NCBI GenBank assembly: GCA_026196275.1
Contig: JAPHTQ010000046.1
Location: 1 to 43,405, forward strand
Direction: 5' to 3'
DNA: 43,405 nucleotides
Origin: Gammaproteobacteria bacterium
GTDB taxonomy: Bacteria; Pseudomonadota; Gammaproteobacteria; Thiohalomonadales; Thiohalomonadaceae
In this document: positions 34,095-36,958 of the stretch, in pieces
How the letters are laid out: the number at the start of each line of letters is the position of its first letter
Numbering within the stretch: position 1 is the stretch's first letter
Position numbers and translations under genes: made by a program
Notes under the pieces: model-generated
Seen by the model: the letters and a program-made list of their open reading frames with translations, nothing else
What the model was told of the DNA's origin: nothing
Databases searched by the model: none

Positions 34095-34568
34095 CTACTG
34101 CTTACCCATCATCTCGGCGATCTGCTCATGGCTGAAACCGCGGTAGAGCATGAAGCGCTGCCGTTTGGCCCGCTCCCTGATATCCGCCGGCCTGTCACTG
34201 CCGAATTTTTTCCGGTAGGCCGCAGCGGCCAACGCGAACCAATCGACCTCTCCCTCCTCCTCCGCCTGGCGAAGGGCGGCGGCGACGAGGAGATCGTCGA
34301 TGCCCCGCTCGCGCAGTTCGGCAGCGATGCGCTGTGGACCGTAGCCCTTCTGGCTACGCTGGCGCAGGTAGGCCTCGGCAAAACGCTCGTCGCTCTGCAA
34401 CCGATCGGCGGCCAGCCGCTCCAGCACCTCCGCACTCACCTCGGACGCCACGCCGCGTCCGGTCAGCTTGCTCGCCAACTCCCGCGCGGAGTGCTCGCGG
34501 CGGGCCAACAAGCCGACGGCCAGTGCATAGGCCTCGGCGTGGTTCAGGGCATTGTCGCTATCACTCAT
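34095..34568 (-). CDS. recX: Regulatory protein RecX
   Basis: 157 residues (E. coli 166). Three tandem three-helix repeats typical of RecX: AYALAVGLLARREHSARELASKLTGRG, RLAADRLQSDERFAEAYLRQRSQKGYGPQRIAAELRERGI, and YRKKFG then RAKRQRFMLYRGFSHEQIAEMM. Binds RecA filaments and limits their growth. 120 bp downstream of recA, separated by a hairpin terminator, so it is probably expressed by read-through. Confidence 0.94.
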   Translation of the reverse strand: MSDSDNALNHAEAYALAVGLLARREHSARELASKLTGRGVASEVSAEVLERLAADRLQSDERFAEAYLRQRSQKGYGPQRIAAELRERGIDDLLVAAALRQAEEEGEVDWFALAAAAYRKKFGSDRPADIRERAKRQRFMLYRGFSHEQIAEMMGKQ

Positions 34569-34688: not shown

Positions 34689-35729
<1,041 letters not shown>

Positions 35730-35767
35730 GGTGCTACTCCTCGAATTATGATTCGTTAAACAAGGTC

Positions 35768-35779
35768 GCATGCTCATGC
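35768..35779. promoter_or_regulatory. 12-bp inverted repeat in the recA leader
   Basis: GCATGCTCATGC: perfect GCATG/CATGC arms with a two-base centre, between the -10 element (35789-35794) and the SD. Candidate operator; no factor known. Confidence 0.35.
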
Positions 35780-35788
35780 TTGAGGAGA

Positions 35789-35817
35789 AATCTAGTCTAT
35801 ACTTTTAACGATGTCAA
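35789..35817 (-). promoter_or_regulatory. recA sigma70 promoter
   Basis: Minus strand TTGACA (perfect -35), 17-bp spacer, TAGATT. Transcript would start about 50 bp before the recA GTG. No LexA box overlaps it. Confidence 0.7.
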
Positions 35818-35822
35818 TATTT

Positions 35823-35845
35823 TTTACCACATCAGTAAATTTTAC
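35823..35845. promoter_or_regulatory. Three TTTAC/GTAAA half-sites between recA and the WYL regulator
   Basis: TTTAC (35823-35827), GTAAA (35835-35839) and TTTAC (35841-35845). The last two make the perfect palindrome GTAAA-T-TTTAC; the first two make an inverted pair with a 7-base spacer. They lie just upstream of the recA -35 and overlap the -35 of the regulator gene, a natural place for an autoregulatory operator. Confidence 0.45.
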
Positions 35846-35869
35846 TTTGTTCACATTTTTATATATTCT
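35841..35869 (+). promoter_or_regulatory. Candidate promoter of the WYL regulator gene
   Basis: Plus strand TTTACT, 17-bp spacer, TATTCT, about 40 bp before the ATG at 35911. The -35 overlaps a TTTAC half-site. The area is AT-rich. Confidence 0.45.
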
Positions 35870-35910
35870 TTGCGCACAATGAAAACCGAGAAACAGAGGG
35901 AGCGCAGGCC

Positions 35911-36813
35911 ATGGCCTCGAGCGGGACAGCAGTGGAGAAAATATTGAAAACCATGAAGTGGAGTACCCGTCAGCGGCTCCAGTACATCGAGGTGATGGCG
36001 TTCTATTGTGGTCTGGTGAGCCGCAACGATGTGGCGCGCGCCTTCGGCGTCTCCGATGCGGCGGCCACCAAAGACCTGGGCCTCTATGGCCGCTTGGCCC
36101 CCGACAACCTGATCTACAAGCAGGGACTGTTCGGCTACGTTCCCGGCCCCACCTTTCAGGCGATCGTCGCTGACCTCTCCCCCGCCACGGTGCTGCCGAT
36201 GATCGCCCACAACCTCACCGGCATGAGTGGCCCCTACGGGCAGACACCGATCTACGGCATCCCGGCACACATCCTGCCGATCCCCGCCCGTCTGCCGGAT
36301 CAGGCGATCACCGCCCAGGTGACGCGTGCCGTGGCGCAGCGCAGGAAGCTGCGTCTGCACTACCGCTCCCTCTCCGACCGCAACAGCGACGAGGCGCGCA
36401 TCATCGAACCCCACTCACTGGCCCACAACGGCCTGCGCTGGCACATCCGTGCCTACAGTGAAGAGACCTTCGATTTCCGGGATTTCGTGCTGTCACGCAT
36501 CGTCGAAGCGCAGATGCTGGAGCCGGCGGCCGAGTCGAGCGCCGAGTTCGATGAGGAGTGGGTGGAGACCCTGGTGCTGCAGCTGGTGCCCCATCCCGAC
36601 CTGCCGGAGAGGAAGCGGCTCAATCTGTTGATAGACTACGGAGCAGAGGGGGGTGTCATCACCATCGAGGTGCGTCGCGCCCTGCTCGGCTACCTGCTGC
36701 AGCAGCTGGGAGTGGACACCACGGCCGACCACTCACGCAACCCCAACGCCTACCAGCTGGTCGTCGCCAACCGCGCCGAGGTAGAGCCGTTCGCAGAGTG
36801 GGCGTTTAGATAA
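35911..36813 (+). CDS. CapW/BrxR-like WYL-domain transcriptional regulator
   Basis: 300 residues. N-terminal winged HTH (about 17-70, WSTRQRLQYIEVMAFYCG, VARAFGVSDAAATKDLGLY and the following LAPDNLIY), WYL domain (about 140-205, RIIEPHSLAHNGLRWHIRAY and FRDFVLSRIVEA) and a WCX-like C-terminal domain (about 215-300). This domain order and the motifs PHxL..G.RWHxRAY and DFRDFVLSR are those of CapW and BrxR, repressors next to CBASS and BREX phage-defence loci; WYL domains of this type sense single-stranded DNA. Here no defence genes are adjacent; the neighbour is recA, divergent. SD GGGAG 8 bp upstream. A role in a DNA-damage response is inferred. Confidence 0.85.
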   Translation: MASSGTAVEKILKTMKWSTRQRLQYIEVMAFYCGLVSRNDVARAFGVSDAAATKDLGLYGRLAPDNLIYKQGLFGYVPGPTFQAIVADLSPATVLPMIAHNLTGMSGPYGQTPIYGIPAHILPIPARLPDQAITAQVTRAVAQRRKLRLHYRSLSDRNSDEARIIEPHSLAHNGLRWHIRAYSEETFDFRDFVLSRIVEAQMLEPAAESSAEFDEEWVETLVLQLVPHPDLPERKRLNLLIDYGAEGGVITIEVRRALLGYLLQQLGVDTTADHSRNPNAYQLVVANRAEVEPFAEWAFR

Positions 36814-36958
36814 GTTGAAAGTTGAAAGAGGCGCATTTGACGGTTTGGTGCCTTATACAATCTTTGTGCACATCCCTCGCAGATAAGCCAGACTCAGGTC
36901 TAATACGCCCCTCCCCCCCATTCCAACTTGGAACTTGTAACTTTCAACTTACAACTCC
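36812..36958. repeat. TTGAA-rich inverted-repeat element at the ends of the WYL gene and thpR
   Basis: Left arm 36812-36828 (AAGTTGAAAGTTGAAAG) is complementary, imperfectly, to the right region 36923-36958 (contains CTTTCAACTTACAACT). The left arm starts at the WYL gene stop codon, and the right arm encodes the last residues and the stop of thpR. Sequence style matches the element at 24341-24459. Confidence 0.6.

Follow-up and report, generated by a model that had tools for sequence, protein, structure and literature searches.

A CapW/BrxR-type WYL regulator and a conserved tandem 18-bp array beside recA suggest LexA-independent control of recA in gammaproteobacteria

We report that a WYL regulator of the CapW/BrxR superfamily is encoded divergently from recA in a group of gammaproteobacteria, and that the region between the two genes carries a conserved array of tandem 18-bp repeats overlying the recA promoter. 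The protein is likely a dedicated, autoregulated repressor of recA that is released by single-stranded DNA (ssDNA). The textbook rule in gammaproteobacteria places recA under LexA control, and how recA is controlled in LexA-less lineages is largely open; the locus offers a specific and widespread answer. Together, the conserved array and the pairing point to an undescribed way of inducing recA after DNA damage.

Results

Organization of the recA–WYL locus

The locus lies in a 43,405-nucleotide stretch of DNA, here called the window, from a gammaproteobacterial assembly of 2.54 Mb. The regulator gene is divergent from recA and the downstream recX, and is followed by thpR (LigT-like), cinA and mutS (Table 1). 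The preferred GTG start of recA is preceded by an AGGAG ribosome site; the list of open reading frames also holds an upstream ATG at 35777. A promoter scan located the recA promoter that had been claimed from the sequence in the original prediction. The accompanying claim that no defence genes are present agrees with our search, in which no credible one was found among ten flanking proteins tested; the weak PADLOC matches of three of them (RecX, RecA and a methyltransferase-like protein) seem to reflect similarity of fold only. Between the regulator and thpR, positions 36812-36957 contain a repetitive AAGTTGAAAGTTGAAAG / CAACTTGGAACTTGTAACTTTCAACTTACAACTC stretch with inverted-repeat character.

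Table 1. Features of the recA–WYL locus (window coordinates)
Feature	Position	Strand	Basis or remark
recX	34098-34568	-	Pfam RecX domains; downstream of recA
recA	34692-35729	-	Pfam RecA 2.5e-147; preferred start GTG 35729
recA promoter TTGACA-17-TAGATT	35817-35789	-	promoter scan
repeat 0, TAGTCTATACTTTTAACG	35793-35810		aligned footprint; partial copy in recA -10/-35 spacer
repeat 1, ATGTCAATATTTTTTACC	35811-35828		aligned footprint; overlaps recA -35, best conserved
repeat 2, ACATCAGTAAATTTTACT	35829-35846		aligned footprint
repeat 3, TTGTTCACATTTTTATAT	35847-35864		aligned footprint; regulator-proximal, least conserved
CapW/BrxR-type wHTH-WYL-WCX regulator, 300 aa, proposed recA repressor	35911-36813	+	Pfam WYL, full-length BrxR/CapW matches

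The regulator is a relative of CapW and BrxR

The wHTH-WYL-WCX plan of CapW/BrxR, which the original prediction had ascribed to the regulator, is confirmed by protein comparisons. The Pfam WYL domain is present (E 2.5e-14), and the full-length sequence matches the solved BrxR/CapW structures 7qfz (6e-37), 7tb6 (2e-36) and 7t8k (9e-33), with phmmer matches to BrxR/CapW spanning residues 14-293 (E 3e-29 to 6e-37); NCBIfam has no model for the protein. A structure model built from 33 orthologues reached a pLDDT of 79.8 and replaced an earlier one built from 10 sequences (pLDDT 69.7). When the newer model was submitted to Foldseek, the top 15 matches were all BrxR/CapW, including the ssDNA-bound CapW 9c5g. 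The family call rests mainly on sequence because the global superposition of the model on BrxR/CapW is poor, with a TM of about 0.45.

The ligand pocket is strongly conserved. Residues Y151, S153, R176, W177, H178, R190 and R196 are invariant in the 33 orthologues, and the pocket residues Y145, S147, R169, H171, R183 and R189 of Sm CapW correspond to Y151, S153, R176, H178, R190 and R196 of the regulator. Departures from CapW are found at Trp156, which is R163 in the regulator, and at Phe185, which is F or Y; like CapW/BrxR, the regulator has W-H instead of W-Y in its WYL motif. In the recognition helix, S48, A51, A52, T53 and K54 are invariant in the 33 orthologues, unlike the S-Q-S of CapW/BrxR. 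The DNA-contacting Arg32 and Ser42 of CapW are retained as R38 and S48, whereas Gln45 and Ser47 are replaced by the invariant A51 and T53. From its sequence, the recognition helix probably keeps the frame of CapW with another DNA specificity. The regulator is classed as a relative of CapW/BrxR, neither CapW nor BrxR itself.

Regulator orthologues are always paired with recA

A profile made from ten orthologues was searched over 369 sampled genomes of the class. Orthologues were found in 25 of them at 433-537 bits, the next homologue scoring 191 bits, and they form a discrete group. A phylum-wide sample contributed one further orthologue; the genomes listed from that sample all belong to the same class, and the results speak for that class only. 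The orthologue is divergent from recA in 34 of the 34 assemblies examined, which come from at least 15 families (25 from the class sample, three of the same family as the window, five named contigs and one from the phylum-wide sample, with G005/L005 counted once), whereas none of six lower-scoring paralogues tested adjoins recA. The predicted pair is thus syntenic in relatives. Since orthologues are as low as 52% identical to the window's protein, the pairing does not simply reflect recent descent.

The regulator fills the gap between cinA/thpR and recA, with the flanking thpR sometimes absent, and most recA loci without the regulator (25 relatives) have the same cinA/recX/alaS neighbours. RecA and regulator trees concur on family-level groups; the RecA tree contains 10 label changes, at least five of them forced by well-supported branches, and the trees are too weak to choose between vertical descent and transfer.

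LexA seems no longer to control recA where the pair occurs

No match to the LexA DNA-binding domain (PF01726) was found in the 99.2% complete genome of the window, whose sole LexA-type match is a 155-aa S24 protein without the DNA-binding part (L046:2127-2594 on contig C52). Short LexA-like ORFs similar to this protein occur in relatives with and without LexA, and one Y-family polymerase was found in the window's genome, on a different contig (C6). The loss of LexA is not absolute: of 28 genomes with the pair, three keep a canonical LexA and 18 encode nothing but a weak, divergent form, while the LexA DNA-binding domain is missing from seven. In the class sample, 3 of the 25 genomes that carry the pair have canonical LexA, compared with 130 of the 344 that do not carry it (Fisher p 0.009, not phylogeny-corrected).

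The original prediction had also noted that recA lacks a LexA box, and the comparison with relatives extends this: CTG-N10-CAG is found in none of the 34 recA–regulator intergenics, that of the window included, and most of these genomes lack canonical LexA. The three pair genomes with canonical LexA carry CTG-N10-CAG boxes at lexA and none at recA. As a positive control, the same box is found at recA in same-family relatives without the pair (G007, G014 and G018). Judged from these sites, recA seems to have escaped from LexA in every genome that has the pair, irrespective of the fate of LexA itself.

The divergent, second-class lexA gene often adjoins a dinB-like Y-family polymerase, in genomes of several families (L115, L116, L117, L123, L126, L127, L128 and L130), and several of its promoters have TTCTC/GAGAA-type palindromes like AGTTCTCTATTTTGAGAACT, which suggests a separate cassette with its own box. 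Some S24 protein occurs in most genomes with the pair, and a second-class LexA or the 155-aa protein might be imagined as an unrecognised S24/LexA-type repressor of recA, leaving the WYL protein to control something else. We regard this as very improbable, because the 155-aa protein of the window's genome has no DNA-binding domain and the palindromes of second-class lexA are absent from the recA intergenics.

A tandem 18-bp array overlies the recA promoter

An ungapped block of about 75 bp, with many invariant columns, is conserved in 32 distinct intergenics and reads roughly TAGGCTATACTTTT...ATGTCAATAyTTTTTAyCACCTnnnTATTTTTTACTATGTAATATTTTTAT. Positions 18 bp apart agree with an identity of 0.538, a value that none of 2000 column shuffles reached (0.337 +/- 0.034); the lag-36 identity is raised as well. 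The recA -35, TTGACA, lies inside the first full repeat and 17 bp from the -10 in 29 of the 32 intergenics, and the -10 is TAnnnT in most of these loci.

The footprint depends on the regulator gene: loci with the gene match it at 16-20 of 20 positions, whereas 25 recA loci without the gene match at no more than 13 of 19. This dependence bears on whether the AT-rich tracts upstream of the recA -35 boost the promoter as bent DNA or as an A-tract UP element, and are not an operator. Such a reading has very little likelihood, given that the 18-bp period is off the helical phasing (10.5 bp), that invariant G, C and mixed positions are included (TGTCAATA, CACCT, TACTAT), that one copy lies downstream of the -35, and that the footprint is missing at recA of the 25 relatives without the regulator.

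The array was searched for in 28 gene-carrying genomes and found at the recA–WYL locus only, bar two matches with 3 mismatches, one where a coding sequence begins and one in a gap near a superoxide-dismutase-like gene, both of which we judge to be chance; extra matches inside the locus are displaced by exactly 18 bp. Because the array is essentially confined to this locus, the regulator seems, from the distribution of its putative sites, to be dedicated to it, while lone degenerate repeats may occur elsewhere in these genomes. The window's genome was searched by pattern and family. Sites resembling a 16-mer of repeat 1 (up to 3 mismatches) score about 0 or below on a repeat 1+2 matrix, versus 52.9 at recA, and were rejected as further regulon members.

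Divergent regulators often autoregulate, and the array sits between both genes, so that it might serve the regulator's self-control only, with a constitutive recA merely sharing the DNA. The distribution of conservation makes this improbable: it peaks over the recA -35 and spacer, and the regulator-side repeat 3 is the weakest. Moreover, the link to recA is unbroken in 34 assemblies, unlike that to the flanking thpR.

The clear signal in the footprint is direct 18-bp repetition, which counts against its reading as an operator of this family, since the sites described for BrxR and CapW have the form of inverted repeats (PMC9122588, PMC9122589, PMC9122601). TAGTA-TTTTT-TACTA is visible in many copies, yet the dyad symmetry of the footprint is not above that of column shuffles, and we make no claim of a palindromic operator. 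The array geometry may differ from that of BrxR/CapW sites, or each dimer may take a degenerate half-palindrome.

Discussion

A model for ssDNA-relieved repression of recA

CapW and BrxR are homodimeric repressors that bind over or next to the -10 or -35 (PMC9122588, PMC9122589, PMC9122601) and, as described in later work (PMC13373217, citing Blankenchip and Corbett 2024), release DNA upon ssDNA binding. By analogy, in undamaged cells homodimers of the regulator would occupy the array (35793-35864), where they would cover the -35 and the -35/-10 spacer of recA and, towards the regulator gene, the region of its own promoter. Expression of recA (and recX) would stay low as a result, and the regulator would repress its own gene. 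DNA damage would expose ssDNA, which would enter the conserved WYL pocket and cause the dimers to release DNA, whereupon the near-consensus sigma-70 promoter would be free to drive recA. The RecA made would form filaments on the ssDNA and, by covering it, complete a negative feedback loop. The circuit would replace LexA control of recA, with no need for the co-protease function of RecA.

The evidence supports regulation of recA by the regulator rather than proving it. Repression is the likelier mode: the protein falls within the CapW/BrxR repressor branch, and the array sits on top of a promoter with consensus -35 and -10 elements. As the best-conserved repeat covers a promoter close to consensus, the simplest account is repression that ssDNA relieves. 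The opposite mode, in which the protein, bound to ssDNA and sitting on the array, would recruit or remodel RNA polymerase and so activate recA, has precedents in PafBC, which activates the mycobacterial damage regulon (PMC11804915), and in DriD, likewise a WYL activator. Both are among the fold matches of the regulator, and the position of repeats 2 and 3, upstream of the recA -35, is one at which activators bind. Activation is nevertheless unlikely, as the repressors CapW/BrxR are by far the nearest relatives, the best-conserved repeat overlaps the -35 itself, another repeat occupies the spacer, and a near-consensus promoter should need no activator.

Comparison with known systems

The regulator shares with CapW/BrxR its full-length homology, domain plan, conserved ligand pocket and a site, here putative, that overlaps a promoter element. 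In contrast to those of CBASS and BREX, it sits in a housekeeping position beside recA and not in a defence island, and its locus has several 18-bp direct repeats versus one inverted repeat.

The original prediction had drawn an analogy to PafBC of actinobacteria. The link between a WYL protein and recA without LexA stands, with a role in DNA damage proposed here as in PafBC; the mode of action does not carry over, given that PafBC is an activator at another kind of promoter and repression is likelier here. PafBC, a heterodimer or fusion, works via sigma adaptation as an activator at promoters that lack the usual -35, whereas the regulator is a single 300-aa protein and the recA promoter that it faces has a consensus TTGACA with 17-bp spacing; in sequence, PafBC matches the regulator only distantly (2.8e-05). 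DriD of Caulobacter is a WYL ssDNA sensor outside LexA control, and ssDNA sensing is proposed here too; unlike the proposed recA repressor, it activates other genes, and its Foldseek match is far weaker than those of CapW/BrxR.

The proposed outcome, damage-dependent control of recA, resembles that of the LexA–RecA SOS circuit. However, recA here has no LexA box, the LexA DNA-binding domain is missing from the window's genome, and the putative sensor would read ssDNA itself instead of undergoing RecA-stimulated self-cleavage. A LexA-free DNA-damage response, as proposed here, has a gammaproteobacterial counterpart in UmuDAb-DdrR of Acinetobacter, yet UmuDAb, which represses error-prone polymerases, is an S24 protein unrelated to WYL proteins such as the regulator (PMC11332147).

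On balance, we lean towards a broader reading, that of a lineage-spanning replacement for the SOS response: an ssDNA-sensing CapW/BrxR-type recA switch, derived from defence systems or ancestral to them, that would operate in many gammaproteobacteria without LexA or co-protease activity, its loop closed by RecA. A point against LexA replacement is that some relatives have neither canonical LexA nor the regulator; one of these is G008 of the same family (4.1 Mb, one contig, near-complete).

WYL ssDNA sensors and the control of recA by PafBC in actinobacteria are already known. The original prediction held a gammaproteobacterial WYL–recA circuit to be undescribed, and our search of full-text literature, with subscription papers and preprints mostly outside it, likewise returned no report of the pairing in gammaproteobacteria; a recA-dedicated CapW/BrxR-type circuit with such an array appears to be new. 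The locus ties housekeeping DNA repair to phage-defence regulators and hints at where to seek the origin of CapW/BrxR regulators. If the model is true, damage sensing would be separated from RecA itself.

Use of the operator by phages was considered and set aside: neither recA nor an orthologue adjoins any of the nine exact pattern matches found in viral contigs, and the single match with a second repeat lies in an AT-rich phage and was taken as chance. Two viral contigs, L192 and L193, encode WYL regulators of the same superfamily, which are 29-33% identical and are paralogues.
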